From Chryseobacterium sp. IHB B 17019 (lineage in GTDB: Bacteria; Bacteroidota; Bacteroidia; Flavobacteriales; Weeksellaceae), in contig NZ_CP013293.1 in assembly GCF_001456155.1 (NCBI RefSeq), forward strand, positions 186,001-250,000: a DNA stretch of 64,000 nt, written 5' to 3'. How positions within the stretch are numbered: position 1 is the stretch's first letter; every line of letters starts with the position of its first letter. The notes below the pieces were generated by a model. It saw only the letters and a program-made list of their open reading frames with translations. It was not told the origin of the DNA and did no database searches. Position numbers and translations under genes: made by a program. Positions 18,970 to 34,248 of this stretch are shown one piece after another.

Positions 18970-19027
18970 TTCTATAAACCATTATTTTTCAATAACAATT
19001 TTATTTAACATTAAAAAACTGACTTAT

Positions 19028-19717
19028 ATGTTTAAGACTAAAGATGCTTGGATGAATTTCTTTTATTCATTCGGTGCTGCAATTGTAATTCTTGGAGCTT
19101 GGCTTAAAATTACTCACATTACTCTGGGACCTATTAATGGTAACATGGCTCTTACAGTGGGACTTATCACAGAAGCGATCATCTTCATCATCTTCGCTTT
19201 CGACCCACCAAAATCTGAAGAGTCTTATGCTTGGGAAAATGTATATCCTGAATTATTAGATAAACATGCAAACCCAAATCCTCTACATTCAAATGTGGCT
19301 AAAAGCAATGCCGCTCAATTTGCTGAATTAGAAAACTCTCTTTCAACTAAATTGGACAAAATGCTTCAGGATGCAAAATTAGACGTTCAATTATTCGAAA
19401 GATTAAGAACTGGTATCGACAAATTCTCTAGTTCAGTTGATCAGATCAACCAAACTGTTGACGTTTCAGCTTCTACTCATAAATATAACGAGCAATTGAA
19501 TAAAGCTGCTCAACACATGGAAAGCATGAATGCTTTATATGCAATGCAGTTGGAAAGCGGTAAGAGACAATCAGAATTTGCTAATAAATATGTAGCAGAT
19601 ATGCAAAAATCTGCTGAGCAATCAGAAAAATTCAATCAGGAACTACAAGGTTTAACTTCAAACTTAAACAATTTAAACAGAGTTTACGGTGGTATGTTAA
19701 CTGCCATGAAGTCTTAA
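19028..19717 (+). CDS. gldL: T9SS inner-membrane motor protein GldL
   Basis: A 229-residue cytoplasmic-membrane protein that with GldM forms the proton-driven motor of the type IX system. The start chosen is the ATG at 19028 (MFKTKDAWMNFFYS), because a longer frame from 18863 would overlap gldK by over 100 bases and add unrelated residues. Two membrane helices lie at about residues 10-28 and 36-55, with a conserved glutamate in the second (TEAIIFIIFAF). A cytoplasmic domain rich in coiled coil follows. Confidence 0.95.
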   Translation: MFKTKDAWMNFFYSFGAAIVILGAWLKITHITLGPINGNMALTVGLITEAIIFIIFAFDPPKSEESYAWENVYPELLDKHANPNPLHSNVAKSNAAQFAELENSLSTKLDKMLQDAKLDVQLFERLRTGIDKFSSSVDQINQTVDVSASTHKYNEQLNKAAQHMESMNALYAMQLESGKRQSEFANKYVADMQKSAEQSEKFNQELQGLTSNLNNLNRVYGGMLTAMKS

Positions 19718-19770
19718 TTTCCAAACCATTTCTAAATTTAACTACTTAATCAAAAAACAAGAAAAAGAGA

Positions 19771-21363
19771 ATGGCACAAGGAAAACAGACACCTCGTCAG
19801 AAAATGATCAACCTGATGTATTTGGTGTTCATCGCTATGATGGCCCTAAATATTGATGCAGAAATCATCAGATCATATTATGACTCTACAAAGGCTCTTA
19901 ACGAAACTAGATCTTTAACTGAGAAGAAAAACGAAAAGATTTTCGAAAAGACTCTTGAAGCAAAAGCTCAGCAGGTACCAGATACTTATGCGCAGCCTTG
20001 GGAGCAATATAAAACTTTAAGAGATAAGATCAATTTGCTGGTAAGCGATGCGGAGAAAATTAAAGTTTTGCTAAAGAAAAAATCAGAGTTTCATGATAAA
20101 GATCCTAAAACAGGAAAAGATATCGATGTAAGTGAAAATTTCGCAGCATTGAATAATAATGAAGCTACTACAGAATATTTCTTTAGAGAAGGAGACGAAA
20201 ATACACCTTCAAAAGGAGCTACAGATCTGAAAGCGAGAATTGATGATGTAAGAAATTATATTAACACAACTTTTGGTAATAATCCTCAATTAAAAGACTT
20301 AGTAGAAAGAGCTAATAAATCTTTAATTGCTGAATATCCAAAAGGAAAATCTCCGAATGAGAAAACTTGGTTCCAAAACAAGTTCTATCACCAGCCATTA
20401 ATTGCTGCAATCTCAAATTTAGAGATTATCCAGAATGATGCGAGAAATGTACAATCTGATGCTTTGGCATTGATGTTACAGGAAAAAGTTGATGCAAGTA
20501 TCAAGTTCTCAAGCTATGAGGCAATCGTTTCTGCTCCGGTAGATGTAGTTGCCGGTAAGCCTGCTGAAGCTGTTATTATGTTAGGAAACTATTCTACAAG
20601 TAACAAGATTAACATCTCTGGTGTTAGCAGACAGGAAAACGGAAAAGGATATGCTTCCCTTAATACAGGTGCAATCGGAGCTCACACTTTAAGTGGAAAT
20701 ATTACATTAACAGATGCTTCTGGTAAAGCGCAAAGCTTCCCATTCACGCATACCTATAACGTAATTGCTGGTCCTCAGGAAGTAAAACTTCAAAAAGGAT
20801 TATTACTTTCTGCTGATAAGATGAATGTAATGTACAGAGGTCTTGATAACCCGGTTACAGGTTCTATCTTAGGTGCTGATAACTCTAAACTTTCATTATC
20901 TGCTCCAGGAGCGGTTGTGAAGAGTACAGGTCCAGGTAAATGGGATGTAAAACCAGGTGCAGGAAATATTCTGAAAATTACTTTATCAGGAACAGATCCT
21001 TATGGTAAGGCATTATCTCAGGTATTTGAGTACAGAATTAAAAATGTACCTCCGCCACAAGGTCAGATCAGAGGTAAGAATAGCTTGACAATGCCAGCTA
21101 CATCAGTTGAGAATCAACAGTTACAAGCTGTTATTCCAGACTTTGACTTCCCGGTATCATTTAACGTGACATCGTTCATGGTAAGAGTACCTGGTAGAGC
21201 TTCAATGCAGATTCAAGGTAATTCGTTAAATAATGCAGCAGGATTGTTCAAAAACTTAAGACCTGGAGACGGTGTTTACATATTTGAAATTAAAGCAACG
21301 GCTACTGGTTTAGGAGATCAAAGAATTGGAAATATCTCACCTGTATTAATTAATATCCAATAA
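19771..21363 (+). CDS. gldM: T9SS inner-membrane/periplasmic motor protein GldM
   Basis: A 530-residue partner of GldL. The N-terminus has the typical MAQGKQTPRQKMINLMYLVF, with one membrane helix at about residues 13-32 that contains the ALNIDAE segment. The rest is periplasmic: a long helical first domain (about 35-225) followed by beta-rich domains that reach the GldKN ring. It ends without an outer-membrane anchor, as expected. Spaced 53 bases from gldL and 16 bases from gldN. Confidence 0.95.
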   Translation: MAQGKQTPRQKMINLMYLVFIAMMALNIDAEIIRSYYDSTKALNETRSLTEKKNEKIFEKTLEAKAQQVPDTYAQPWEQYKTLRDKINLLVSDAEKIKVLLKKKSEFHDKDPKTGKDIDVSENFAALNNNEATTEYFFREGDENTPSKGATDLKARIDDVRNYINTTFGNNPQLKDLVERANKSLIAEYPKGKSPNEKTWFQNKFYHQPLIAAISNLEIIQNDARNVQSDALALMLQEKVDASIKFSSYEAIVSAPVDVVAGKPAEAVIMLGNYSTSNKINISGVSRQENGKGYASLNTGAIGAHTLSGNITLTDASGKAQSFPFTHTYNVIAGPQEVKLQKGLLLSADKMNVMYRGLDNPVTGSILGADNSKLSLSAPGAVVKSTGPGKWDVKPGAGNILKITLSGTDPYGKALSQVFEYRIKNVPPPQGQIRGKNSLTMPATSVENQQLQAVIPDFDFPVSFNVTSFMVRVPGRASMQIQGNSLNNAAGLFKNLRPGDGVYIFEIKATATGLGDQRIGNISPVLINIQ

Positions 21364-21379
21364 AACTAATTAGAATATT

Positions 21380-22318
21380 ATGAAAAAATATATTAGCAGT
21401 TTTTTAGTATTAGTTTCGGGATTCATGTTTTCCCAGACTATTCTGAATGCTTCTTCTCCGGAAGAATTCAGAAAAATGAGAGCTGAGAACAAAATGAAAG
21501 TAGGAGATACTGTTATTGACAAAAAAGTAAAACCTTTGGAATACGGATTTGTTGATGACAAGGATATCCTGAAAAGCATGTTTGTTTGGGAAGTTATTGA
21601 TATGAATGATAAGATCAATCAACCTTTCTATTATAACAATCCAGATGGACTATTATCTACAGAGACAAAATCTCTTTACAAGCTTTTACTTGATGGAGCT
21701 CTAAGCGGCGACATCAAAGAAGTTTATGACGATGAAAACTTTGTTACAAGACTTACTCCTCAACAGATCAAAGACAGATTGGTGAGTGTACGTGTTGATG
21801 ATGAAGCGGTAAATATCCTTAACAGTGGACGTCCGTTGACTGAGCAGGAGAAAAAAGAGCTTACTGATATTTATGAAACGACTACTGATAAAGTAAGAGT
21901 TCTTAAAGTATTCGGTATGTGGTTCATCGACAAAAGAGACGGAGCATTGAAGTACAGACCTCTTGGTATTGCTGCAATGGGTCCTGATCCACAGATGATC
22001 GGTAGAGTAGGTCCTGATGGGCAGCCTCTTGAAGGAGCTAATGATTTGATCGATCTTTTCTGGGTATATTATCCGAACGCGAGAGATATTTTAGCTAATA
22101 ACTACGTTTTCAATAGAAAGAATACGTCTGCAGATTTATCTTTCGATGATTTGATCAACGCTAGAAGATTCTCTTCAGTAATTTTCAAATCTTCAACAGG
22201 TTTAGGTGATGGAGTTATCAAAGATTACATCCCTAGAGATGCTGATGAGCAGCTTGAGGAGAGTGACAGAATCAAGTCACAAATCCTTGCAATGGAAAAT
22301 GATATGTGGAATTACTAA
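21380..22318 (+). CDS. gldN: T9SS ring protein GldN
   Basis: A 312-residue periplasmic protein (PorN homologue) that forms the ring with GldK beneath the outer membrane. A signal peptide at about residues 1-19 ends SGFMFSQ. The body contains LEYGFVDDKDILKSMFVWEVIDMNDKINQPFYY and RYPLG-type strands characteristic of the family. It is last in the gldKLMN run and is followed within 21 bases by a strong terminator. Confidence 0.94.
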   Translation: MKKYISSFLVLVSGFMFSQTILNASSPEEFRKMRAENKMKVGDTVIDKKVKPLEYGFVDDKDILKSMFVWEVIDMNDKINQPFYYNNPDGLLSTETKSLYKLLLDGALSGDIKEVYDDENFVTRLTPQQIKDRLVSVRVDDEAVNILNSGRPLTEQEKKELTDIYETTTDKVRVLKVFGMWFIDKRDGALKYRPLGIAAMGPDPQMIGRVGPDGQPLEGANDLIDLFWVYYPNARDILANNYVFNRKNTSADLSFDDLINARRFSSVIFKSSTGLGDGVIKDYIPRDADEQLEESDRIKSQILAMENDMWNY

Positions 22319-22338
22319 ATTTCACTTGATAGTTATAC

Positions 22339-22368
22339 AAAACCTGAGTATTTTTACTCAGGTTTTTT
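22339..22368 (+). terminator. Terminator of the gldKLMN operon
   Basis: AAAACCTGAGTA (22339-22350), loop TTTT, TACTCAGGTTTT (22355-22366), then T. It ends only 5 bases before the next start codon. Confidence 0.9.
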
Positions 22369-22372
22369 TATT

Positions 22373-23413
22373 ATGGAAAATGTAGATTATATCATTGTTG
22401 GTGACGGGTATGCAGGTTTGTTTTTCGCGCACCAGCTTATAAAAAATAACAAGTCTTTCGTTGTTTATTCGGAAGGAAAGAAGAGTGCGTCACAAGTTTC
22501 TGCGGGAATCATTAATCCTGTTGTCCTTAAAAAGTTTACAACTTTTTGGAAGGCCCAGGAGCAGATCGACTTTCTTATATCTTCTTTAAAAGAAATTGAA
22601 GCCTACACCGGTGAAAATTATTTCATAGAAGAACCGATTCACAGAATTTTCCATGATGAAAATGAACAGAAACTTTGGCTGAAAAAATCTCAAAATGATG
22701 AGCTAATTAATTTTTTAGATAAAAAATTCACTCATTTAAACACTGTAAAAAACGATTTTGATTCAGGAAAGGTCAATCAATCTGCCAGACTTAATGTAAG
22801 TGGATTTTTCATGGGTTTATTCGCTTTTTTAGAAAGTAAGAAGCAATTAATTAAGGATAAATTCGATTATTCTAAAATTAATACTACAAATTCTACTTAT
22901 AAGAATTTTAAATTTAAAAATATACTATTCTGTGAAGGTATGGGAGTAAAAAACAATCCCTATTTTTCAGATATTCCTGTAATCCCGAATAAAGGCCATC
23001 ACATTAAAGTAAAACTTTCTGAGCCTCTTTCTGAAAATATTACGATTAAAAAGAAGCACTTTTTGTTTCCGACAAATGGAGGGTTATATTTCTACGGCGG
23101 AACTTACGACCGGGAACAACTGCATAGCCATATTGATGATTCTGCTGTGGAACAACTGGTAAAAGGATTATCAGAATTTTATCCTTATGATTTTGAGGTC
23201 AATGAGGTGAACTTTGGCTTCAGACCAACAGTGAAAGACAGAAGACCGATCATTGGGAGACATCCGGAACATGAAAATTTGTATGTTTTCAATGGACTTG
23301 GTGCGCGAGGAATCCTGAATGGCTGCTATTTTTCCAAAAGCCTTTACGATTTTATTGAAGAAAATATTCCTTTGCATGAGGAGGTTTCTCTGGATAGGTT
23401 TAAAGAAAAGTAG
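22373..23413 (+). CDS. FAD-dependent oxidoreductase (DAO family)
   Basis: A 346-residue flavoprotein of the D-amino-acid-oxidase fold. The N-terminal dinucleotide-binding strand is DYIIVGDGYAGLFFAHQL. The C-terminal FAD-contact region reads GFRPTVKDRRPIIGRHPEHENLYVFNGLGARG, as in amine or amino-acid oxidases. The substrate cannot be read. The start codon lies immediately after the gldN terminator, so its expression depends on readthrough or on a promoter inside that spacer. Confidence 0.82.
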   Translation: MENVDYIIVGDGYAGLFFAHQLIKNNKSFVVYSEGKKSASQVSAGIINPVVLKKFTTFWKAQEQIDFLISSLKEIEAYTGENYFIEEPIHRIFHDENEQKLWLKKSQNDELINFLDKKFTHLNTVKNDFDSGKVNQSARLNVSGFFMGLFAFLESKKQLIKDKFDYSKINTTNSTYKNFKFKNILFCEGMGVKNNPYFSDIPVIPNKGHHIKVKLSEPLSENITIKKKHFLFPTNGGLYFYGGTYDREQLHSHIDDSAVEQLVKGLSEFYPYDFEVNEVNFGFRPTVKDRRPIIGRHPEHENLYVFNGLGARGILNGCYFSKSLYDFIEENIPLHEEVSLDRFKEK

Positions 23414-23592
23414 GCCGTAAAAGTTCCGGAAAGAGCGGGATGAATCTCTAGCCAAAAGCATTTACAAGCCTACTTTGAAATTACTTACAATAACAAACTA
23501 CATATAAACAACAGTTGTAAGTAATTTAAAAAATAATCGGATCAAAATATATTTGTCAAATGACAAGTATTCCTTTATTTTAATAAAAAGAA

Positions 23593-23858
23593 GTAGTGAG
23601 TAAGTTGTTGAATGTCACCCACTACCTCAACCTTATTATGAACATTTTTAATTTAAAAAAAGAGGAAGCAAATACTTAATATAAAACGGGATGAGTTTTT
23701 GTATTAAAATACCTGCTTTCCTACTTCCACTTCACTCTAATTAATTTTGTAAATTATTAATAATTAAAAAGCTATCTTTTATTTTAAATTGATTTTCATT
23801 ATTCTCTTGTTAAAAAAATAGTGGGCATTTTTGCCAACTGCCTTTAAACCCACTATTT
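23593..23858 (-). repeat. Hairpin repeat cluster B (three units) downstream of the TPR-LuxR gene
   Basis: The only structure in the 705-base gap between the FAD gene and the TPR regulator. Three hairpins: 23593-23625 (GTAGTG/CACTAC arms), 23664-23728 (GGAAGCAAATA left arm, imperfect, outer GGAAG/CTTCC) and 23816-23858 (AAATAGTGGG and its complement). On the minus strand each is followed by a T-rich run. They resemble cluster A in the AGGAAGCAAATA arm, in a GGGATGA loop word shared with 26258-26324, and in CAC-rich flanks running into TAATTAAT-like sequence. Confidence 0.5.
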
Positions 23859-24065
23859 AAAAAAAAATCCTTACTAGGGAACAAATTTGTGTTTTAAATA
23901 CTAACTTGAGAATGTTGAGGCAAATGTATAATGAATTTTAGATAAATTCATTACTGCAATACTACTTCGAGTTTTTAATGTATTGAATTTTAGGTATTTA
24001 TGATTTGTTTTGCAGTAAAATTGAAGTGTATCAAAAAAGTAAATTTTTAGACTTATCATAAAAAA

Positions 24066-24090
24066 ATCCTTTAAAAAAAATTTAAAGGAT
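24066..24090 (-). terminator. Terminator of the TPR-LuxR regulator gene
   Basis: ATCCTTTAAA and its complement around five A; on the minus strand a TTTTTT run follows. It lies 29 bases after the stop codon. Confidence 0.7.
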
Positions 24091-24118
24091 ATAATAATCT
24101 ATTTTTTAAGGTGAAAAA

Positions 24119-25537
24119 TTAAAGTTCCATCATCCATTTGTTAAGGTCAACATCCGAAGGAAGCTCTAATTTTTTTCTTAATCTGTACTTTCTGGATTCT
24201 ATGGTACGGATAGAAATATTTTTATATTGAGCAATGGTTTTTGTTGAAAGATTTAATCGAAGAAAAGCTGAAAACCTAATATCATTAGCGGTAAGATGTG
24301 GATAGGTGCTGGTAAGTTTTTCGTAAAACTCAGGATAAACTTCTTTAAAACGGGTAAGAAAAAAGGGATCATTTGTACTGGCGAGCTTAGATAATTCGTC
24401 AAAAGCTACATTAAGTTTACTTTTAAGCTCATCTGTTTCGTGAAGGGTTTCGATGATGATTTCTTCGGTTTCCTTTTGTTTTTTAATATATTTTCTTGTT
24501 AGAACTACCAATATGGCAGCCGAAACTAAAAGAATAATTCCAATAATAACGTATGCCTGGGTTCTTTCTTTCTTTTCCTTTTTTGTTTCCTTGCTTATGA
24601 TTTTATCTACGGGAATCCTAAGTGCTTCTCTTTCAGATTCATCGATACTGTCTTTAGAATCTGAATATTTTTCCAGGAACTCATTTTTCTTAACATCATC
24701 ATTCATCAGTTTGTAGGTGTCAGAAATAGCTTTATAAGTATTTGTGATATCATTTTTTCTGGAAAGCTGCTGCGAAAGAGCGAGGGATTGAAAGTAATAT
24801 TCCAGTGCTTTTTCGTATTCTTTTTTTTCTAAATACAGTTTTCCGAAAGCTAACAATGTCATGGATTTCTGATAAGGGCTGTAATCTCCGGAGATTTTTA
24901 TGGCTTTGTTTAAATAATTTTCCGCAGAATCCAATTCCTTATTTTTCAGAAATTTTTCTGCAATATGAACGTAGGTCAAAGGTTGCGCAGTAAGTTCGAG
25001 CCGTTTTTTAAACACCGCATTCACGGAATCTACCACATGCAGTTCCTCAAAATTTTGAAGTTTCCAGGTGTAATGATAGTAAAGAAGCTTTTCTCTTTGG
25101 CTTTTATTTTTGATTTTTTGAGAATAGAAAATTGATTTATTAAGGTTCTCTGTTGATTGATTGATCAGTCCCAGAGACGCATAATTTCTGCCGTATTCAC
25201 CATAAAGTTTGGCTATCAGGAACGGATTTTTTGTTTTTTCCAGCTGATCTTCAGCAATTTCCAAATGGTTGAGACTTTCCTTATATTTATGAAGATACCA
25301 AAGCAGGCCGCCCAGATTGATGTGTGCAGCAATGGAAATTTCAATATTATTTTTTTTACCATTTCCCTTTATCGCGTCCTTATTCAGGCTGATGCTTTTC
25401 AGGATATTGCCTTCTGTCCGATATTTTTCCGTGATACTGTCCAGTTCATTTATAGTATAAGTCTGTGCAGATAAAGGTAAAATCAAAAATAAAAATAATA
25501 CATAAAATGCTTTTTTGAAATAACAATTTAGGAACAT
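24119..25537 (-). CDS. Membrane-anchored TPR protein with C-terminal LuxR-type HTH
   Basis: A 472-residue regulator of a layout common in Flavobacteriia. It has a signal or anchor segment at residues 1-24 and tetratricopeptide repeats over about 45-310, for example YFQSLALSQQLSRKNDITNTYKAISDTYKL. A membrane helix follows at about 327-347 (YVIIGIILLVSAAILVVLT), then a cytoplasmic coiled coil and a DNA-binding end, ITANDIRF-like with NISIRTIESRKYRLRKKLEL. It probably senses an envelope state through the TPRs and binds DNA from the membrane. The 27938 gene is a paralogue. Its TAATTTTG box 19 bases upstream shows it does not depend on the hairpin array for transcription. Confidence 0.82.
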   Translation of the reverse strand: MFLNCYFKKAFYVLFLFLILPLSAQTYTINELDSITEKYRTEGNILKSISLNKDAIKGNGKKNNIEISIAAHINLGGLLWYLHKYKESLNHLEIAEDQLEKTKNPFLIAKLYGEYGRNYASLGLINQSTENLNKSIFYSQKIKNKSQREKLLYYHYTWKLQNFEELHVVDSVNAVFKKRLELTAQPLTYVHIAEKFLKNKELDSAENYLNKAIKISGDYSPYQKSMTLLAFGKLYLEKKEYEKALEYYFQSLALSQQLSRKNDITNTYKAISDTYKLMNDDVKKNEFLEKYSDSKDSIDESEREALRIPVDKIISKETKKEKKERTQAYVIIGIILLVSAAILVVLTRKYIKKQKETEEIIIETLHETDELKSKLNVAFDELSKLASTNDPFFLTRFKEVYPEFYEKLTSTYPHLTANDIRFSAFLRLNLSTKTIAQYKNISIRTIESRKYRLRKKLELPSDVDLNKWMMEL

Positions 25538-25555
25538 AATTCATGTTTTATCCTA

Positions 25556-25563
25556 CAAAATTA
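25556..25563 (-). promoter_or_regulatory. -7 promoter box of the TPR-LuxR gene
   Basis: The minus strand reads TAATTTTG, matching TAnnTTTG, 19 bases before the ATG at 25537. Confidence 0.45.
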
Positions 25564-25834
25564 AATTATATCAATATTATTAAGTTGATTTTAATATATT
25601 AATATTGCTATTATGGATTTATTCTTAATACAAACTATGGTTGTTGGTTATATTAAATAGTTGGATATTAATCATTTAGGCATAATTCGCTTCTCGTCAT
25701 TTATTTTGTGGTACCTCTTTTTTCTTTTAGGTTTTATATTTTACATAAAATTAAACAATAAAGAGTGAATTTTATATAATAATATCAAAAGAATATTCAA
25801 AATAGTTTAAAATAAATAGTTTCTTATACTTAAA

Positions 25835-25857
25835 AAGTTCCCACAAAGTGGAAACTT
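25835..25857 (-). terminator. Minus-strand terminator ending the hairpin-array transcript
   Basis: A 10-bp stem with one G-T pair (arms 25835-25844 and 25848-25857) and a 3-base loop; on the minus strand it is followed by TTTT. It separates the hairpin array from the TPR-LuxR gene. Confidence 0.6.
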
Positions 25858-25959
25858 AAATAGAGTAGGCAATAACATTAAAAACAACAAAATGATGAGA
25901 TAACTAATCTCTGATAAAAAAATATTGCCAAAAAATGAAAAATGTAATACTTCTTAAAA

Positions 25960-26324
25960 ATAGGGCGCAAATATCCAGTTTTACAGATATAAATTTGAAG
26001 ACTCGGATACTTGCAATCCTATTCACTTACTTAATACTATGAAGATGTATGAGTTGGGTGATTGGTTTTGATAAAAACAGGATGCAAACATTTCTTTTAA
26101 TGTTTAAATGTTTGCAGTCCTGTAAACACACTTTACTAATAATGAGATTAATCTTTCTAATTTTATAAAATAGGAAAGGAACAATCAAGATGCACGTTGG
26201 TGAAAGTCCCTATTCCTATTTTGCACACTATATAAAACATGAAATGTAATTTTTATAATAGGAAGCAAATAGCCAACCTTAGATTGGGATGAAATTCTGC
26301 AATTGGCTATTTGGCTGATCCTAT
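25960..26324 (-). repeat. Hairpin repeat cluster A: four related imperfect palindromes
   Basis: Four hairpins fill a 1-kb gene-free gap: 25960-26022, 26077-26123, 26167-26222 and 26258-26324. On the plus strand the left arms read ATAGGGCGCAAATATCC, ACAGGATGCAAACATTT, AAAATAGGAA and ATAGGAAGCAAATAGCC. The right arms end in TTGCAATCCTAT, TTGCAGTCCTGT, TTCCTATTTT and GCTGATCCTAT. Inner stem bases differ between units yet stay paired (ATCC/GGAT, CATTT/AAATG, AGCC/GGCT), which suggests selection on structure. A weakly conserved CAC...TAATA...ATGA spacer follows units. On the minus strand at least two end in five T, like small terminators. Confidence 0.55.
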
Positions 26325-26556
26325 TCCACCTAATAATACTGTATTGTTCTAAAAGCATTTACATTCAGTAAGGTTTGTTAATTAAATTATTGACAATATT
26401 CCGGGTTTTTCAAACGGCATTATTTACTGATTATGGAACAAGATTTTGCCTTCCGGATATTTAGCTTCATTTCTAAATATTTTCTGATGAGCAGATGAAC
26501 ATGATAAGCCACAAAAGCCAATAATTTTATTTAGTTGTGTTTTTTTAAGATATTAA

Positions 26557-26907
26557 CTAACCTTGAATAGAATGCAAATGCCTGTTCTTAAAGTGTTTTC
26601 TCCATTTTGTTACCGTATTTCTGCTGAGTTTGAAATGATTGGCAAGTTGGGTGTTGTTTAGATTATTTTTTACTTGATAATCTAGGATTTCAATAATTGT
26701 TTTCTCATCATAAGACCGGTGTTTCTGATTGAAGATCTGCGTTTCTTTATCCCTGATGCCAAAAATTATCAGGTTAAGCCTTATCACATCAAGTATTGAG
26801 ATCACTTCCTTGTTGAGAATTGGTCTGCATTCCTCCTTCTTTCCCGGGCATTTGATGCTGATAATATCACTATATATCAATTTATAATTGGGCTGTTTAC
26901 GTTCCAT
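26557..26907 (-). CDS. Transposase-like helix-turn-helix protein
   Basis: A 116-residue protein starting MERKQPNYKLIYSDII. The longer frame from 26967 would overlap the upstream gene, so the ATG at 26907 is preferred. The C-terminal half, ILDYQVKNNLNNTQLANHFKLSRNTVTKWRKHF, is a helix-turn-helix like that of IS3-type OrfA proteins. No catalytic DDE partner or terminal inverted repeats are present, so it is more likely a domesticated regulator than a working transposase. The N-terminal part (KCPGKKEECRPILNKEVISILDVIRLN) looks like a family domain that I recall only from Chryseobacterium-type genomes. It lies 10 bases after its upstream partner. Confidence 0.7.
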   Translation of the reverse strand: MERKQPNYKLIYSDIISIKCPGKKEECRPILNKEVISILDVIRLNLIIFGIRDKETQIFNQKHRSYDEKTIIEILDYQVKNNLNNTQLANHFKLSRNTVTKWRKHFKNRHLHSIQG

Positions 26908-26917
26908 GATACTGAAT

Positions 26918-27391
26918 TTAATTGTTAATATTTGATGTATTATATTCCTTATGTATTCTCTTTTCATGGTTTTGATATTTTACAATCCACCTGTGTAGCG
27001 TTGTTTTGGGAATACTATATTTTTCTACAACCTGTCCGATATTTTTTTCCCCGGAGGTGATAAGCCCCGTGATAAAATCTATTACTTCTTTCGTGTAGAT
27101 GTTTTTTCTAAATTGAGGCATATCGCTCGGCTTCTCTTTATTGCCGCTGTATGCGTTGCTTTGAGGAGAGAAAAGTATCAGATGTTGTGAGTATATTCTG
27201 AAGAAATCATATTCCAGGAGTTTACTCCATTTTAATAAAATATCAGTATCTATACTTTTCGAGTCAAACATTTTTTCAATTTCTTCTTCAGAACAATTAA
27301 AAAAATTACATACTCTGGCAATCTCCATTTCGGATTCTAAAAATCTTAGCTTGATTAAAGCTCCTGCATTTATATTTTTAAAAGATTTCAT
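26918..27391 (-). CDS. Helix-turn-helix protein, partner of the downstream HTH gene
   Basis: A 157-residue protein. The N-terminal half (residues 10-75) looks like a small helical regulator domain with an MEIARVCNFFNCSEEEIEKMF segment. The C-terminal half contains VIDFITGLITSGEKNIGQVVEKYSIPKTTLHRWIVKYQ, a second HTH of transposase type. It forms an operon with the following HTH gene. Together they lie directly upstream, on the same strand, of the hairpin array. A TAGATTTG promoter box with an embedded GTTAAC site precedes it. Function unknown; DNA binding is inferred from the two HTH segments. Confidence 0.7.
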   Translation of the reverse strand: MKSFKNINAGALIKLRFLESEMEIARVCNFFNCSEEEIEKMFDSKSIDTDILLKWSKLLEYDFFRIYSQHLILFSPQSNAYSGNKEKPSDMPQFRKNIYTKEVIDFITGLITSGEKNIGQVVEKYSIPKTTLHRWIVKYQNHEKRIHKEYNTSNINN

Positions 27392-27438
27392 AACAATTTT
27401 TTTTTATAAGTTGGAATTCTTTTTCGAAATTGTTTAAG

Positions 27439-27528
27439 CAAATCTAATAGCTGTTAACCTGAGATTGAAATTTTTGCCTGTTAATTCGTGTTAACCAAAG
27501 CGGTTGTTTCTTCTAAGTAAGTGTTAAC
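27439..27528 (-). promoter_or_regulatory. Promoter of the HTH gene pair with three GTTAAC sites
   Basis: The minus strand carries TAGATTTG at 27446-27439, 48 bases before the ATG. GTTAAC palindromes lie at 27453-27458, 27490-27495 and 27523-27528, spaced 37 and 33 bases, each preceded by T or TG. The first sits just upstream of the -7 box, a position suited to repression. The rest of the gap up to 27937 holds nothing else I can support. Confidence 0.4.
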
Positions 27529-27937
27529 TTGTAAATTATTATGTATTTGATTTTTAATGCATTGTGTTTTTAAACATGTTATTTTTCAAATTAGACGAAA
27601 ATCTAAAAAGTAACAGGCAGGTGGTTAAACGAATTTGTTTTATTAATCAATATTTGAAGTTTTTGATTTTATTGGTTAAACTTTTAACCCATTCTCGGAT
27701 AAATTCCAATTTCATTTGCAAAAGTTTCCAAACAGAACAAAAAACAGAAAAATCAATTCAATTTTTAGATATTTCCAATTTTCTTGATGTTATCAAAATA
27801 CGGTATATTTTGCATCTTAAATTAATTTTTTTAATCTGATTATCAGTTTGTTATTGATAGGGTTGATCAGAATTGTCAATTTGCATAATCTTCAGTCTGC
27901 TCAGATTTTCAATGGTTTTTTTTTCTAAATTGGAAAT

Positions 27938-29650
27938 ATGATTCGTAAGCTAATTTTTGTCCTCATATCATTACTGATAATGAATTCTTGTCATTCTGAG
28001 AATGATAATGACTATTTTCATGGGATAGATAAGGAAGTAACAGAAATAAACCAACACCAGTGGAAAGTTTATGCTATTTATAAGAGAGAACTTAAAAAAT
28101 ATCAGACGACAAAAGATCTCAAATATCTGCTGAGCAGCAAATATGTAGAATCATTTCTGGATCCCGATAATAAATCTAAACAGATATCCATAATATATGA
28201 ACTTTTAAGAATTAATGATGATGAAAATGACTACATTACAATAGCGTGTAATTTTTTTCTTTCGCTTAAAATTGAAGATACATCCCCAAAACTTTCTCTG
28301 CAATTCCTGAATGAAGCCATTAAAATAGATGAAAAAAAAGAGAACCACTTTTTCCTGCCACATCTCTACCATGCAAAAGGGAGGTGGTATTTTAAACATA
28401 AAAATTACTCTCTAGCTAAAATATATTTCGCCAAAGCACTGAGAAATTTTAAAAAAAGTGATGTTTTATATATAGCCTCCATGTACAATAATTTTGCGAT
28501 GTGCAACAGTAAGCTTCGCAGTGTGGATTCTGCAATTAATCATATTCGTTTTGCGATACAACTGTTAAGGAATAAAAAAAATCTTACCGAAGATGAACTG
28601 TTTTTCATGTATATAATGAAAGGAAATCTTGGAAGTTTTTACCTTGAAAAAAAAGATTATGCAAAAGCTGAGCTTTATTTTAACGAACAGATAAATTTTC
28701 AGATAAAAGCCAAAAAGTATCACTTTAATATTGTCCGTAATTCTGATGAGTTGTTTCAGCTTTATGAGCTGACAAAGCAACCGGATAAAGAAAGAAAATT
28801 GGCAAACCTACTGATCGGTATATTGCCGAGCTTAACCAATACTAAGAATAAGATCATTGCATGCGCCCTCTTACGGAGATATTTTGCCAGACAAAATGAT
28901 ATGCAGAATATGAAAATTTTCTCCGATAAGCTGGATGTACTCAATAAGAGATATAATGATGAAATAACGAAAGAAGTAGATAATATCTCTGATGTGTTGA
29001 ACGGCTATATCATAAAAAATATCAACCAGAAATTTGATTTTAAAATAAGGGATCATCGCAGGAAGAATATGCTGCTTTTAAGCCTGGTTCTTGCAACCAT
29101 AATAATTTCTGTAAATATCATATTAAAAATAAGAGAAAGGAATAAAAAGGAAAAAGAAAGACTCGAGCGGCTGAATCTTCTGCTTGAAAGCAGTAAAGAA
29201 ACTCTGGAAAAAGATATACAGATGCAAAAAGGAAAAATAAAAAACCTGCACATGAATCTGAACCTTAAAATAGAAACCGAAAAAGCATTTCTTGAAAACC
29301 TTAAAAAAATAAAGAAATCTAAGAATATTAATGCTGAAGAAACGGTAAAGGATCTTTTCTTTAAAATTAATAATCTTCTTCAGATTGATGAGAAAAACAA
29401 TGATTTTGTAAGCGAAAGCTCTGAAGAAAGTAATGCATTTATGAAAAAGCTGTCCGAAATGTATCCTTTTTTATCAGAACATGATCTTAAGTTTTGCGTG
29501 TATTTCCGCATGAATTTATCTTCAAAAGAGATCGCTTTGCTGGAAAATATTACTCCAGGAAGCGTAAGGGTGTATAAAACGAAAATAAAATCTAAAATAG
29601 GACTTGGAAAAGAAGAAGAACTAAGTGCAGTTCTTAATACAATAAAATAA
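27938..29650 (+). CDS. Membrane-anchored TPR lipoprotein-like regulator with C-terminal HTH
   Basis: A 570-residue paralogue of the regulator at 24119-25537. The N-terminal segment ends LLIMNSC, a possible lipobox. TPR repeats span about 90-345 (LYHAKGRWYFKHKNYSLAKIYFAKALRNF and others). A membrane helix lies at about 377-396 (MLLLSLVLATIIISVNIILKI), then a long coiled coil. The C-terminus LKFCVYFRMNLSSKEIALLENITPGSVRVYKTKIKSKIGL is an HTH of the LuxR type. It is divergent from the HTH pair and faces away from the hairpin array. The signal and targets are unknown. Confidence 0.8.
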   Translation: MIRKLIFVLISLLIMNSCHSENDNDYFHGIDKEVTEINQHQWKVYAIYKRELKKYQTTKDLKYLLSSKYVESFLDPDNKSKQISIIYELLRINDDENDYITIACNFFLSLKIEDTSPKLSLQFLNEAIKIDEKKENHFFLPHLYHAKGRWYFKHKNYSLAKIYFAKALRNFKKSDVLYIASMYNNFAMCNSKLRSVDSAINHIRFAIQLLRNKKNLTEDELFFMYIMKGNLGSFYLEKKDYAKAELYFNEQINFQIKAKKYHFNIVRNSDELFQLYELTKQPDKERKLANLLIGILPSLTNTKNKIIACALLRRYFARQNDMQNMKIFSDKLDVLNKRYNDEITKEVDNISDVLNGYIIKNINQKFDFKIRDHRRKNMLLLSLVLATIIISVNIILKIRERNKKEKERLERLNLLLESSKETLEKDIQMQKGKIKNLHMNLNLKIETEKAFLENLKKIKKSKNINAEETVKDLFFKINNLLQIDEKNNDFVSESSEESNAFMKKLSEMYPFLSEHDLKFCVYFRMNLSSKEIALLENITPGSVRVYKTKIKSKIGLGKEEELSAVLNTIK

Positions 29651-29709
29651 TACTATTATTTTCAAAATACTGCGAATTTTCTTATCTTCATCTATGAAGA
29701 ATTAAGCTT

Positions 29710-29967
29710 ATGAACGAAAATTTTTTAGGCATTGTCGCTGGAATCCTTACTTCGATCTCAATGATCCCGCAACTGGTAAAAGTAATTAAAGAAAAAGACG
29801 CCGAAAATCTTTCCTGGCTGATGCTTCTGGTACTCATTACTGGGCTGTCATTATGGGTATGGTACGGTTTCATAAAAGATGAATTGCCTATTATCTTGTC
29901 CAATGCTTTTGCCGTTCTTGTGAACGTTACACTTCTGATTTGTTTTTTTATTTTTAAAAAATCCTGA
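29710..29967 (+). CDS. SemiSWEET sugar transporter
   Basis: An 85-residue membrane protein with three helices and a PQ-loop: SMIPQLVKVIKEKDAENLSW at residues 17-36 is the conserved SemiSWEET/MtN3 motif. Two copies form the transport path for a small sugar such as sucrose or glucose. The helices lie at about 7-24, 37-55 and 60-82. The length is that of complete bacterial SemiSWEETs. Confidence 0.9.
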   Translation: MNENFLGIVAGILTSISMIPQLVKVIKEKDAENLSWLMLLVLITGLSLWVWYGFIKDELPIILSNAFAVLVNVTLLICFFIFKKS

Positions 29968-30273
29968 GACAACAATTCTATTATTCTTAGTATACCAAAG
30001 ATGCTGAAATTAACTTTTTCAGCTAAATAACTCCACTATTTTCCTCAAATTTTTCATTTTTTTTATACTTCACTTCTACTGAAGGGTGTTTTTTAATGTT
30101 TTGATTTTGAGTGTTTTAATTGTCAAAAGTATAAATGCAGTAGACTGTTTTTAGTCTGTTGGTTCTACATTTGCAACCAGGAATGACGATGTCGGATAAT
30201 CTTAATCCAAAAATATTTGAAGCGCAACAAAATTAAGATAACCGATAAAGAATTTAACACGCATAGAAAAAAA
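29968..30273 (+). promoter_or_regulatory. Gap holding a -7 box for the long-leader surface-protein transcript
   Basis: TACATTTG at 30166-30173 matches TAnnTTTG and would start a transcript about 380 bases before the next gene. A GACTG...TAGTC inverted repeat lies just upstream. Nothing else is visible except a short hairpin (GCTGAAA...TTTCAGC) at 30003-30023 after the SemiSWEET gene. Confidence 0.4.
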
Positions 30274-30366
30274 ATGAAAAACAAAATGAGAGCAATTGTA
30301 CAATTTTTATTAATGAAGATCTTTTCCAGACAGCCGATTTTTATTCTCGTAAAAGATAGATTCTAA
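30274..30366 (+). CDS. Possible 30-residue leader peptide
   Basis: A short frame in the leader of the downstream surface-protein gene. It encodes MKNKMRAIVQ, then a hydrophobic FLLMKIF segment, and ends in a charged LVKDRF. It could be a leader peptide or chance. No homologue is known to me. Confidence 0.2.
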   Translation: MKNKMRAIVQFLLMKIFSRQPIFILVKDRF

Positions 30367-30557
30367 AAATACAAATACATAGTTCCCAAGACAACGAAAG
30401 TTAGGTTATTTATCTTCAAAATAACGCTAAGTCCACAGTATTAACTGCGGAATTAAGAACAAACAAAACAACAAAAACAAACTCAAACAATTTCAGCTTT
30501 CAAAAAATATTAAACATTTGATTAATAGAATGAAAGATGATACAAACACTAAAGAAA

Positions 30558-31877
30558 ATGAAAAATAAAATTACTTTAGCTTTTACTCTTCTATTGGCAG
30601 GTTTAGCTTACGCGCAAGTGGGTATCAACACACCTAGCCCTAGAGCAACCTTAGATATTACCGCGAAAGCAGCCACAGGTAACACAAGAACTCCGGAAGG
30701 TTTGCTGATTCCTAATGTGGACAGACTGAGAGCTCAATCTATGACAGGGATTGCCACTTCCACAATGATTTACGTGAATAGTGTTGCCACTGGTACACAG
30801 GCGGGTATTGCAGCAAATATAGATGCGGCCGGATACTATTATTTTAATGGAGTAGTCTGGACAAAACTAATTCCCGAAGTTCCCACTCAAATAGACACTG
30901 ATACAAATATATATAACACAAACGGATCTCTTACAGCAAACCGTACAGTAACTCAGGCGGGTAACACGCTGGCCTTTACAAGTACGGCTGCTACAGGGAC
31001 AAGTCATTTTACGGTGGACGGAAATACTTTCAATGTTGATGCGAGAAATAACAGGATCGGTATCGGTACAGCAGCCCCGAATAATCTTTTAGACTTAGGT
31101 GCATCTAGTGGAAGAAAATTAGCAGTTTGGAACAGCGCGGCCGGAGATGACTTTTACGGATTCGGAGCGGCGGCAGATGTTTTACAACTATATGCAGGGG
31201 CTACTTCTACACAAAGTCCGCTTATTACTTTAAACCAAAATGGAAGAGTAGGTATCGGTACTACGGTTCCGGTAACAAATTTCCATACAATCGGTACCAG
31301 AAGGTTTGAAAATGCTACGGCAGGAACTGTTCAGGTAGGCTCAGTACTTACTGCAACAGATACCAATGGTACGGCAGAATGGAAAACCCCAGCATCTGAA
31401 ACGATACTTGGAGGGATGGATGCAAATGCAGGAATCAGTATACCCTTTGCTAATGATGGAACACTTAAATATACAGGACGTTTTATAACACTTCCTCCGG
31501 GAAGATGGGCTGTTACGATTACTCAGCTTGCACAGACTTCCGGAACACTGGATAATGACGACTGGATGTTTGTAAGGAGTACTTTTGCAGAAGGAGCTAT
31601 GGCGGTTGGTGCGACTGCAAACAGGTCTAGTGATGTTAATGGAGGGCCCACTTTGATGAGTTTCAGAGTACAAGGTCCCGGAACCACCGGAAATCCACAA
31701 CAGTTTGATGTATTTCAAGGCACTGTTTTTATTACTAATAATACCAATGCTGCTAAAACCTACAGATATATTGCTGGTCAAACAGTAACCGGGGGAGGTC
31801 CTGACTCTGCGACTTTCATTAGGTCGTATGGAGGAACATGGTCAGAAAGTTCAATCTATGCCACTGCCATTAAATAG
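30558..31877 (+). CDS. Secreted surface protein with repeated GIGT-P blocks
   Basis: A 439-residue exported protein of a type frequent in Chryseobacterium. The ATG at 30558 is preferred over 30537 because it gives a clean signal peptide, MKNKITLAFTLLLAGLAYA, cut before QVGINTPSP. The body repeats the motif NRIGIGTAAPNN and GRVGIGTTVPVT, which resembles tail-fibre and adhesin stalks. A beta-rich C-terminal domain follows (ITLPPGRWAVTITQLAQ onward) that looks like a TNF/C1q-like jelly roll. No T9SS sorting domain is seen. The role is probably surface attachment, by inference. Confidence 0.7.
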   Translation: MKNKITLAFTLLLAGLAYAQVGINTPSPRATLDITAKAATGNTRTPEGLLIPNVDRLRAQSMTGIATSTMIYVNSVATGTQAGIAANIDAAGYYYFNGVVWTKLIPEVPTQIDTDTNIYNTNGSLTANRTVTQAGNTLAFTSTAATGTSHFTVDGNTFNVDARNNRIGIGTAAPNNLLDLGASSGRKLAVWNSAAGDDFYGFGAAADVLQLYAGATSTQSPLITLNQNGRVGIGTTVPVTNFHTIGTRRFENATAGTVQVGSVLTATDTNGTAEWKTPASETILGGMDANAGISIPFANDGTLKYTGRFITLPPGRWAVTITQLAQTSGTLDNDDWMFVRSTFAEGAMAVGATANRSSDVNGGPTLMSFRVQGPGTTGNPQQFDVFQGTVFITNNTNAAKTYRYIAGQTVTGGGPDSATFIRSYGGTWSESSIYATAIK

Positions 31878-31920
31878 ATATAATTAGTATAAAAGAAAAA
31901 TCGAGTTTATTTTATAGTGA

Positions 31921-31953
31921 GAAGCGGGAATGAAGTTAGATCTAAGTTCCTGC
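31921..31953 (+). terminator. Hairpin after the surface-protein gene
   Basis: GAAGCGGGAA and TTCCTGCTTC pair with one G-T around a 16-base loop, followed by a T-rich run. Confidence 0.55.
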
Positions 31954-32013
31954 TTCATTTTCATGCAAAGATATATGTGTTTTTTTTATAATTAAATCAG
32001 CTATATAAGCTGT

Positions 32014-32053
32014 AAAACGGGGCAAGATACAGGAATCTTGTCCTGTTTTTATT
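32014..32053 (+). terminator. Strong second terminator
   Basis: A stem of about 15 bp (32014-32028 with 32035-32049, two G-T pairs) around a 6-base loop, followed by TTTTTATTT. Confidence 0.75.
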
Positions 32054-32087
32054 TAAAATAAATCATTATTAAAATAAGTCACAAAAA

Positions 32088-32113
32088 AGCGCTTTCACAA
32101 AAGTAAAAGCGCC
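32088..32113 (-). terminator. Terminator of the META-domain gene
   Basis: GCGCTTT and AAAGCGC form a stem; on the minus strand it is followed by TTTTTTG, 32 bases after the stop codon. Confidence 0.7.
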
Positions 32114-32144
32114 TTACATGTATGTTGATGTGTTTCTTAAATGG

Positions 32145-32612
32145 TTATTTCGCGTTATGGGTCTGCAAAACAAATTTAGCTAATGGGGCCATTCTGGCTT
32201 TGTTTAAGGTCAGTGTATTTCCGTTTACAGAATAATTATCTGATGCAAGCAGCGCGTCTACAAAAGCCCTTTCGGTTTCCAGATCATCACACGCAATCAT
32301 CGTAGACATCCCCTGATTGAATTTGATACGCATCATATCCGGTTTGATTTCAAAAGTTCCGCCTACTCCGTTGCATCCGCCGTGCCCTTCATATCTCATA
32401 TTTGCTGTATTCAGCCTGAAATATGGATTTGCACTTGGGTTTTTAAGGCTTATCGGCCGTCCGTTCAGTTCGGTAAGCTTCCATATCTTTCCTGTGATGT
32501 TGTTTGTGTTCTTAGGAGGTGTAGGAGGATTTGGTGTTGGCATGGTGCTCATACAAGAGGTTACAACAATTGCTAATAGCAAGACGTTGAAATATATAAG
32601 TACTTTTTTCAT
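32145..32612 (-). CDS. META-domain lipoprotein, HslJ-like
   Basis: A 155-residue lipoprotein with lipobox VVTSC (cysteine 20) and a proline-rich linker. The META domain covers about residues 40-150: GKIWKLTELNGRPI, then GHGGCNGVGGTFEI and IACDDLETERAFVDALLASDNYSVNGNTLTL. The domain occurs in heat-shock protein HslJ and in envelope proteins; its ligand is unknown. It lies 38 bases downstream of another lipoprotein gene and is probably cotranscribed with it. Confidence 0.88.
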   Translation of the reverse strand: MKKVLIYFNVLLLAIVVTSCMSTMPTPNPPTPPKNTNNITGKIWKLTELNGRPISLKNPSANPYFRLNTANMRYEGHGGCNGVGGTFEIKPDMMRIKFNQGMSTMIACDDLETERAFVDALLASDNYSVNGNTLTLNKARMAPLAKFVLQTHNAK

Positions 32613-32650
32613 ATTTCTTTTATTTTCATATTAATAATTAGGTGTTTAGT

Positions 32651-33043
32651 TTAATACGAGGCCATTTTAGTATTAGTGGAAGAAGGCTTTTCCTTGTGAT
32701 GAAAAAGAACCATATTATAGTCTTTTTTCAGGAAAGTAATATCTCCTCTAATATTAGAATACTGATAATCAGCATCTGTGGCAGTGTATTCCGGTAATTC
32801 TTCGCTTTTTTTCAATTCATAAGATTTTCCATCCAGACGTACTACTGTTGTGTTTTGGGTCTCGTTTATTGTTACTTCCAGCCGATCTCCAAATTCATCT
32901 GTATAAACATTTTTTGTGATTTTATCGGCATTATCATTCATTGGATTTTGCAGGACAACTTCTTCTTTTGCCTGGTGCTTACATGCTGTTATCATAAAGG
33001 CCAATAAGCCAATGATAGTGCTGATGTAGAATAACTTTTTCAT
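32651..33043 (-). CDS. Small lipoprotein, possibly MliC-like
   Basis: A 130-residue lipoprotein with lipobox ITAC (cysteine 21). The body has the sequence rhythm of MliC/PliC lysozyme inhibitors: DRLEVTINETQNTTVVRLDGKSYEL, then a short stretch and DITFLKKDYNMVLFHHK. The cysteines typical of MliC are absent, so the resemblance is only suggestive. It shares a likely operon with the META-domain gene, another envelope-stress-type protein. Confidence 0.65.
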   Translation of the reverse strand: MKKLFYISTIIGLLAFMITACKHQAKEEVVLQNPMNDNADKITKNVYTDEFGDRLEVTINETQNTTVVRLDGKSYELKKSEELPEYTATDADYQYSNIRGDITFLKKDYNMVLFHHKEKPSSTNTKMASY

Positions 33044-33806
33044 AGTGATGAGTGATTAGGTGTTTCATGAATTTAATATTAATACTTTATAAAATTACAA
33101 ATATTTTTAATTTAATTATGTTAATTTTGTATAAATTAATTAAAAATTTGCACCATTATCAAATTAATGGATATTTTATTCCGTTAAATTCATTAAAAAT
33201 AATTAGACTTATAATTTATTTTCTGGTTGTTAGAAATAGATAGAGGGCTTTTTGTTAAGAAAAGAAAATTTCAATATCGACCTGTGCATTTTTTAATAAT
33301 TTTTTTCATTTGTAGTTTGTTTTTTATCATTTAAAGTTCCGGCAATATTAATTCAATTTTTTTGATATTAAAATGGGAAGTGGTTAATCCTTTAAACTGA
33401 TGAATGAAATTGCTGTTTATCCTTATACATTTTCCCGATATAATACTTTTTAAGAAATAAAATTAATTTCTTTAATAATAAAAAGGCAGTGAAACTTATG
33501 AAATCTCTATAATAAGGTTATTGATTTTCCCGATTTTTCAAATTATGACAGCAAAAAAAGCCAATGCAAAATAAATAATGTTAAAAAATCATCCACAATT
33601 ATCTTAAATAAAAAGTTTCTAGATTCATTTTTGGGTTCCTGTATCAGTAAAATTTTAATCAGACTTTCTTAAACAAAGTTGAAGTGTAACCGCACCCAGA
33701 AATACTTCGGCTATTTATTTCAATTTACCGGAAAAGCTTTATGCAGGCCTTTTCAGCTTATTTAAAGGAGCGTTAAATATTGTTAATATATGTGATTTAT
33801 TACCAA
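33044..33806. other. AT-rich gene-free stretch
   Basis: About 760 bases without a credible gene, RNA or strong hairpin. Short frames here are low complexity. It separates the lipoprotein pair from the divergent efflux locus. Confidence 0.5.
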
Positions 33807-33810
33807 GTTG

Positions 33811-33844
33811 TTTGGAAATGTATTCAAACTAACACCTACATTTG
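33811..33844 (+). promoter_or_regulatory. Promoter of the small membrane protein and efflux locus
   Basis: TTTG (33811-33814) and TACATTTG (33837-33844) are 22 bases apart. The ATG at 33856 is only 11 bases past the -7 box, so the transcript has almost no leader. This rules out the upstream start at 33808. Confidence 0.55.
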
Positions 33845-33855
33845 CATCTGTAAAA

Positions 33856-34248
33856 ATGAGAAATTATATCGTTTATTTTTTGACAAGCCTTTTTCTGCTA
33901 TTTGTAGTGGAAAGCAAAATCAACGTCAAAACTTTACAAAATAATTTTTCGGGACAAGCTTCCCATAATTTACCCAAAAAGACAAACCGCCTGAATCAAA
34001 CCTACGAAAAACTCTCAATACAACAGGCGCCGGACGATACCGGAAATGTTTATTCACTGGAACTTGCGGAAGATGACTTCCAATTTTCAGATACTTTACA
34101 GGATATTGTTGTTTTTGCGAGTATTTTTACATTGGTTTATATTTTTGGGTTAAAAAAATTCAAAAAGTTAAAGCCAACCGTTCACGGCTTTCTATCTGAG
34201 TTTGCCACTGTAAAAAAATTCATTCTGATTCGTTCTATCAGAATTTAA
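33856..34248 (+). CDS. Hypothetical two-helix membrane protein upstream of the RND operon
   Basis: A 130-residue protein I do not recognise. The start at 33856 is fixed by the promoter that overlaps the longer frame. It has a hydrophobic N-terminal segment (YIVYFLTSLFLLFVVES) and a second at about 83-98 (IVVFASIFTLVYIFGL), with a polar middle. The tail is basic. It lies 146 bases before the efflux adaptor gene. A role with the pump is conceivable from position only. Confidence 0.55.
   Translation: MRNYIVYFLTSLFLLFVVESKINVKTLQNNFSGQASHNLPKKTNRLNQTYEKLSIQQAPDDTGNVYSLELAEDDFQFSDTLQDIVVFASIFTLVYIFGLKKFKKLKPTVHGFLSEFATVKKFILIRSIRI

Follow-up and report, generated by a model that had tools for sequence, protein, structure and literature searches.

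Two small adjacent genes in the genome of Chryseobacterium sp. IHB B 17019, here called A and B, raise the question whether they are a leftover of a mobile element or a working regulatory device and, in the latter case, which protein acts at the sites in their promoter. They lie in a window of 64,000 nucleotides (G000:C1:186001-250000; genome size 4.08 Mb; Table 1), which a sequence-only reading had interpreted as holding a self-regulated pair of proteins, each ending in a transposase-type HTH, with GTTAAC palindromes in the promoter and no transposase nearby. The pair itself was readily recovered: A and B are adjacent minus-strand genes forming one bicistron, and a gap of 546 bp separates A from the divergent gene T570. 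The promoter element was found where it had been placed, as were the three GTTAAC sites (27453, 27490 and 27523, with start-to-start spacings of 37 and 33), and a Pfam scan of 14 window proteins (the pair, both TPR regulators T570 and TPR472, and ten neighbours, 17551-34248) detected no transposase. The start of gene B probably lies at 26907 rather than at 26967, since conservation begins at ORF residue 21 and the 20 leading residues are non-conserved.

Table 1. Features of the A-B locus, in positions of the window
Feature	Position	Strand	Remarks
TPR472	24119..25537	-	TPR/membrane/LuxR-like regulator, the second at this locus; lies downstream of B
Hairpins in the B-TPR472 gap	25957-26325		four; most share the outer ends AATAGG..GCAAAY
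Gene B	26557..26907	-	116 aa; conserved, probable start 26907; ORF list gives 26557-26967
Gene A	26918..27391	-	157-aa ORF, with orthologues and a predicted structure
-7 promoter element TAGATTTG (TAnnTTTG)	27439..27446	-	kept in 11/11 orthologues
GTTAAC adjoining the -7 box upstream	27453..27458	-	shared by L036 and L037, missing at this place from the other eight orthologues
Operator box 3, TTAACA (AATTAACAGG)	27479..27484	-	10 bp after box 2 in 11/11
Operator box 2, TTAACA (GGTTAACACG)	27489..27494	-	follows box 1 by 33 bp, against 32 bp in the ten other loci
Operator box 1, TTAACA (AGTTAACACT)	27522..27527	-	starts 80-81 bp upstream of the -7 box in 11/11
AT-rich element between boxes 0 and 1 (TTGAAAATCAAATNATTA-like in relatives)	27541..27558	-	judged by eye
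Operator box 0, degenerate here (ATAACA)	27577..27582	-	53-55 bp upstream of box 1; 10/11 within one mismatch
T570	27938..29650	+	570 aa; TPR, hydrophobic segment, LuxR/GerE-like HTH; divergent from A in 11/11
Secreted-looking 'AQVGINTPSP' protein	30537..31877	+	family recurs beside A-B pairs

The pair is a conserved two-gene unit of a multi-copy family without a name. Homologues of A were present in 143 of the 148 genus genomes searched, with up to 20 copies per genome, and B homologues accompanied A in 58 of 60 paralogue loci (in one case at a distance of 2.7 kb) and were missing from two, these 60 being the best-scoring matches listed and not a random draw. Named relatives among the best 80 of 561 belonged mostly to Chryseobacterium, and also to Epilithonimonas, Empedobacter and Soonwooa. 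The window genome itself contains one additional A-B pair, whose A is an intact 150-aa ORF, though the aligned match crosses stop codons, plus one solo B. The additional pair (L045, G000:C1:130000-148000) is followed by three tandem TPR-LuxR-like genes with gaps of about 1 kb, and the solo B homologue (L046, G000:C1:449000-467000) is located at C1:457555 beside a 452-aa ORF, presumably a tyrosine recombinase. Orthologues of the window copy of A were found in ten of the other 147 genomes at 66-90% identity, and in all ten loci the divergent neighbour T570 was kept beside A. Six comparisons put dN/dS of A at 0.05-0.11 with dS of about 1 or more, so that by this measure A is under strong purifying selection; for B, dS was saturated in five of six comparisons and the remaining one gave a ratio of 0.05. 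The highest within-genome identity was 76% in 17 pairs compared, drawn from the sampled loci and not from every copy, with no near-identical copies among them. An origin as phage or plasmid cargo was rejected: tblastn of A returned one phage record (41% coverage, E 1e-3) and two plasmid records (41 and 49%), all matching only its N-terminal half. Searches of open-licence full texts brought up no description of such a two-protein HTH family and nothing that seemed to bear on the present system.

The predicted folds of both proteins were those of DNA-binding regulators. AlphaFold2 models (mean pLDDT 79.8 for A and 79.7 for B; pTM 0.55 and 0.41) gave A an XRE/lambda-repressor-like helical domain at residues ~6-70, a flexible linker at ~72-95 and a homeodomain-like HTH at ~100-157, and gave B a helical N-terminal part followed by a tri-helical C-terminal HTH at ~67-114. 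In the A model the block-mean pLDDT was >90 over residues 11-60, which form part of the five-helix XRE-like domain, while the linker was of low confidence and the C-terminus tri-helical. Residues 6-68 of A aligned best with 7t8i, the DNA-binding domain of ImmR (Z 7.1, rmsd 2.4, 63 aligned; VIA-align), followed by Stl, PrgX, CylR2 and P22 c2, the top Z values being modest and tied. The five-helix lambda-repressor-like fold was recovered, with modest scores. The tri-helical homeodomain-like HTH was recovered at both C-termini, with DesR as the match for residues 101-157 of A (Z 7.1, rmsd 1.5, 56 aligned; VIA-align) and 68-116 of B (Z 6.2, rmsd 1.6, 49 aligned; VIA-align). Since these Z values are in the range reached by common folds, they support the fold class only. 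At the sequence level, residues 1-81 of A resembled Bacteroides/Parabacteroides HTH regulators (E about 1e-3), and sequence searches of solved structures gave nothing significant. At E<=0.1 the Pfam model HTH_7 matched 59 of the 72 A proteins, HTH_28 matched 36 of the 43 B proteins, and the Cro/C1 model HTH_26 matched just 20 of 72 A-family members; in the window A and B proteins the C-terminal HTH signatures were below the gathering cut-offs. The transposase-type HTH reported earlier at both C-termini stands as a signature, yet it does not serve as a family label: A and B form a conserved unit of two genes, and A also has the N-terminal XRE-like domain. Through residues 6-68, which match the ImmR, PrgX and CylR2 structures, A is similar to the XRE (Cro/CI) repressors, and it differs from them by the additional C-terminal homeodomain-like HTH and by its same-operon partner B.

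The alignment of 11 orthologous upstream regions, in which at most one mismatch per box was accepted, revealed an array of direct repeats in front of the -7 element (Table 1). The consensus over 33 operator boxes was ATTAACAC, with A at -1 in 29 of the 33. The boxes are all on one strand at spacings of ~54, 32 and 10 bp, which are near whole helical turns, and the distance from box 1 to the -7 box was held in L044 and L043 despite ~40 and ~190 bp extra, respectively, between promoter and gene. Three boxes together with the -7 box occurred in 0 of 3300 dinucleotide shuffles, and in 1.5% without the -7 box. The -7 box is that of the Bacteroidota sigma-A promoter (TAnnTTTG), here joined to a fixed upstream array of TTAACAC boxes. 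In F. psychrophilum the -7 box is reported to lie at -12 to -5 (PMC9723704), and with that placement the boxes would begin near -146, -92, -60 and -50. Phylogenetic footprinting thus strongly supports the TTAACAC array upstream of A-B as a real conserved regulatory array.

The GTTAAC palindrome overlies this conserved operator and was itself rejected as the motif. It was present 16 times in the whole window against 13.7 expected, i.e., at chance level, and seven of the ten orthologues had no copy closer than 1500 bp to the start of A; L036 and L037 each have one, at -68, and L043 has three, farther upstream. A G precedes TTAAC in just 4 of 33 operator boxes. The clustering of three GTTAAC within 76 bp was nevertheless unusual (3 of 200 shuffles). 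The upstream sites singled out by the sequence-only reading are hence part of a regulatory array, but not as GTTAAC palindromes: a real conserved device had been pointed out under a wrong motif and, probably, with a wrong binder.

The same boxes with the same spacing were found at independent genes across species, as in a direct-repeat regulon. The strict pattern with the -7 box found 15 sites, spread over 12 of the 148 genomes, and none in the reversed control. Eleven are at the A locus, where they are expected because the pattern was derived from these 11 orthologues. Of the four elsewhere, which alone are informative, one each precedes a metalloprotease in G122, an NRPS-like gene in G143 and a secreted-looking protein in G105, and the fourth is a weak site in G094. 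The four-box pattern gave 19 sites in 10 of 148 genomes against three in the reversed control. With the gene names read off the sequences by the analyst, these comprised six orthologous A promoters, one paralogous T570-A gap (G059) and one A-B pair (G082:C30); four metalloproteases, one NRPS-like and one dioxygenase-like gene (G043); and two secreted-looking proteins (G105), one secreted-looking protein opposite T570 (G082:C4) and two sites without a convincing close gene (G094). The degenerate box 0 leaves the window genome without a four-box match. When the draw was widened to 296 genomes of the family, 22 four-box sites turned up in 12 genomes (reversed control 5), adding two new genus members, G307 (three sites) and G298 (one), plus G217 of another genus, whose site is probably due to chance, the gene behind it being of another kind. 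In G307, a T570 gene stands opposite one site, and another site lies in front of a TPR regulator (L370), with an A-B pair further along in the same orientation; for the third G307 site and the one in G298, no ORF of >=45 aa begins within some 500 bp. As a side observation, the four-box operators of L350/L357 (G094), L367 (G307) and L368 (G298) are followed by no same-strand ORF for about 500 bp, and the sequence after the operator is near-identical in G094 and G307 (AGCAGTCAATAGCAGGAAATTCAG); a small RNA gene is possible behind these operators.

Metalloprotease homologues were present in 10 of 148 genomes, and those with >=56% identity numbered six, two in G122, two in G143 and one each in G075 and the window genome, with no others among the 148; all four genomes belong to the 11-genome orthologue set. 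The four-box pattern preceded four of the six, and the metalloprotease gene of the window genome (G000:C1:2765186) had a degenerate array whose TTAAC/TTAAT boxes show just the 55- and 32-bp spacings. The array was absent from the second G122 gene and from seven more distant homologues examined. Looser patterns were less informative. In the window genome a relaxed three-box pattern gave six matches (reversed control 0), among which only the A operator was convincing in context, and TTAACANNNATTAACA with up to one mismatch gave 40 matches against 33 in the reversed control, which is no clear excess. The two-box pattern with the -7 box gave 60 sites in 52 of the 148 genomes against eight in the reversed control, and was dropped as evidence because many of the sites represent a different conserved promoter (TTAACAAA..TTTAACA...TTAATTTTG). 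The latter, exemplified by L238-L246, has TTAACAAANTTTAACA followed by a TTAATTTTG-like box and occurs in many genus genomes.

The divergent neighbour T570 is the candidate binder of the boxes. Its Pfam profile included TPR_12 (2.9e-8), and the C-terminal GerE match (E=0.027, 14.5 bits) did not exceed the Pfam cut-off of 23.5; TPR472 likewise matched TPR_12 (7.5e-12) and, below the cut-off, GerE (0.00028). T570 has a lipoprotein/signal-like N-terminus and one internal hydrophobic segment at ~376-400 (mean hydropathy 2.4 at 379-397), which sits between the TPR and HTH parts. In ToxR and CadC the DNA-binding winged helix is at the N-terminus. With such membrane-bound one-component regulators T570 would share an outside sensor, one membrane segment and a DNA-binding domain in a single chain, as well as a position divergent from or beside the target, and it differs from them by the TPR repeats and the C-terminal LuxR/GerE-like HTH. 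LuxR-type proteins often use inverted repeats, which, like the sub-cut-off GerE match, counts against T570 as the binder. The weak C-terminal GerE-like HTH links both T570 and TPR472 to this LuxR/NarL (GerE) group, from which they are set apart by sub-cut-off scores, an apparent membrane anchor and helically phased direct repeats as candidate sites.

The reading that we prefer, with moderate confidence, is that T570 activates A-B from the boxes and that A and B are secondary regulators. The case for T570 as the putative binder was built by comparing genomes. T570 orthologues (54-79% identity) occurred, each beside A, in exactly those 11 of the 148 genomes that have the A orthologues. All ten four-box genomes were among the 39 of 148 that have a T570-family gene by a hand count at E<1e-80 (hypergeometric 6e-7); since seven of the ten form the linked orthologue group, the other three alone give p about 0.008. 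Furthermore, operators opposite a T570 gene were found in G082 (C4) and G307 with no A-B in the 9.5-10 kb fetched.

Twenty T570 paralogue loci, taken from the ranks below the orthologues in listed order with gaps, extended this comparison. An A homologue was present within the 14 kb fetched in ten of them, one being a fragment, and three-box arrays were found in L312 (two), L324 and L327, the background being one match in 592 kb of A-paralogue loci and one in 400 kb of arbitrary regions. The presence of the array followed the predicted recognition helix of T570. This helix reads TPGS(V/A)RVYK in the orthologues (RPGS in L042) and T(S/V)GS(V/I)RVYK in L312, L323, L324 and L327, and the other 16 loci have TEGS, TDGS, TPNT, KDVT, KDAS, TMGT and AEGS helices. 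Arrays were present in all three testable T(S/V)GS(V/I)RVYK loci against 0 of 16 with other helices (1 in 969, by hand), with L323 excluded because its sequence ends too soon, and with L324 and L327 being similar modules that are not fully independent. In L325 and L326, T570 and A are also divergent but the helix is of another class; both loci were without an array, which counts against the T570 reading. The T570 genes found through the operator, which are not independent of it, had TVGSIRVYK (G082) and TSGSVRVYK (G307). The minus-strand array of L312 is located just upstream of T570 and points away from it, with TTAAC/TTAAT boxes and no A behind; its 54/32/10 spacing helps the T570 reading. 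The plus-strand array of the same locus has a 30/10 spacing and, like the other, is not upstream of A, both of which count against that reading.

Self-regulation, in which A and/or B would bind the TTAACAC boxes of their own operon, is possible, but we consider it unlikely. Both proteins carry predicted HTH domains, the boxes are in the A-B promoter in all 11 loci, and at the A-B pair of G082:C30 the operator is present with no T570 within the 15 kb fetched, where T570 would have to act in trans. Against this, the array tracks T570, including the operators with no A-B nearby, and the four-box array is present in just ten genomes compared with the 143 that have A homologues. It was also absent upstream of all 60 sampled A paralogues; this absence is weak evidence for 45 of them, in which a co-directional ORF ends within 300 bp upstream and which may therefore lack a promoter of their own, so that only ~15 are likely to own one and the case against self-regulation is weakened.

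We consider it rather improbable that the boxes are bound by a third factor (TPR472, a further TPR/LuxR protein or a global regulator encoded elsewhere) and that T570 is linked to them only genetically. The metalloprotease and NRPS-like targets, which are far from any T570 gene, would fit this explanation, as would the large number of TPR-LuxR genes and the G307 operator preceding another TPR regulator (L370). TPR472 in particular is missing from the locus in 2 of 11 cases, L035 and L044, which keep the operator, and the match between array presence and T570 recognition-helix class over 19 testable paralogue loci argues against third factors in general.

That A-B is a remnant or accessory of a transposable element, with the repeats as its end sites, is very improbable despite the mostly weak transposase-type signatures (HTH_Tnp_1, HTH_28, HTH_7), shared with the accessory HTH proteins of IS3/IS630/IS66, and the high copy number, since the bicistron is conserved and under selection with the same neighbours in 11 orthologous loci, A has an XRE-like domain, the repeats share one strand and keep a fixed distance from a promoter element, no catalytic partner was found among the 14 scanned proteins, and no recent copies in different contexts were seen among the compared pairs. 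The A-B region looks like a regulatory circuit instead. Among the repeats listed in a general repeat search, no flanking terminal-repeat pair was obvious.

The surroundings of the pair were also recurrent. Secreted-looking 'AQVGxxT' proteins, one of which is encoded downstream of T570 in the window and has no Pfam or NCBIfam match, were found at 51 of 60 A-B loci against 4 of 40 arbitrary 10-kb regions (Fisher 2e-14), and TPR-LuxR genes at 33 of 60 against 1 of 40 (Fisher 7e-9). These values overstate the significance, since the queries were drawn from the pair loci, with same-locus matches removed, and some loci belong to genomes related to each other. The 40 regions used for comparison were hand-chosen at arbitrary coordinates, and one contains an A gene. 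Downstream of B follow a hairpin-rich kilobase, TPR472, and then FAD oxidoreductase and gldN/M/L genes. The hairpin array, which had been suggested as a target of the pair, is a feature separate from the operator: its motif AATAGGNNGCAAAY has two exact copies in the window genome, both at this site, and similar stems were present downstream of B in the closest orthologues L035-L037, with none of the searched kind in L042-L044. An Rfam search over 24000-30500 gave sub-threshold matches only, among them DUF805b at 25845-25871 (28.1 bits against a gathering threshold of 35.6).

Following the T570 reading, the protein would cross the inner membrane once, with its TPR part in the periplasm and its LuxR-like HTH in the cytoplasm, and would sense something outside this membrane. 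Once signalled, it would bind the phased boxes, which face the same side of the helix, upstream of where RNA polymerase sits, and recruit the polymerase to A-B and, in some species, also to the genes of a secreted metalloprotease and other secreted proteins. A, with its XRE-like and homeodomain-like domains, and B, with its HTH, would then regulate further genes. Given the spacing of the boxes and their upstream position, activation is more likely than repression at the A-B promoter.

The probable device, a membrane-bound regulator with a direct-repeat operator, is of a known type and is combined here with a two-protein HTH family. To our knowledge, few regulator-operator pairs are known in Bacteroidota. 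The array supplies a searchable operator, a candidate activator and two targets conserved across species, which makes the TPR/HTH regulators and the 'transposase-like' pairs directly testable. It also cautions that a small protein carrying a transposase-type HTH may be a conserved regulator. A broader and tentative proposal is that the genus may possess classes of membrane TPR-LuxR-like sensors, each with its own phased direct-repeat operator, controlling A-B-type pairs and secreted surface proteins. If this is true, dozens of paralogous XRE/HTH pairs would be wired to sensors of different specificity classes in a network so far unrecognised in the genus, which would set the surface proteins that the cell shows, with A-B as its second tier.
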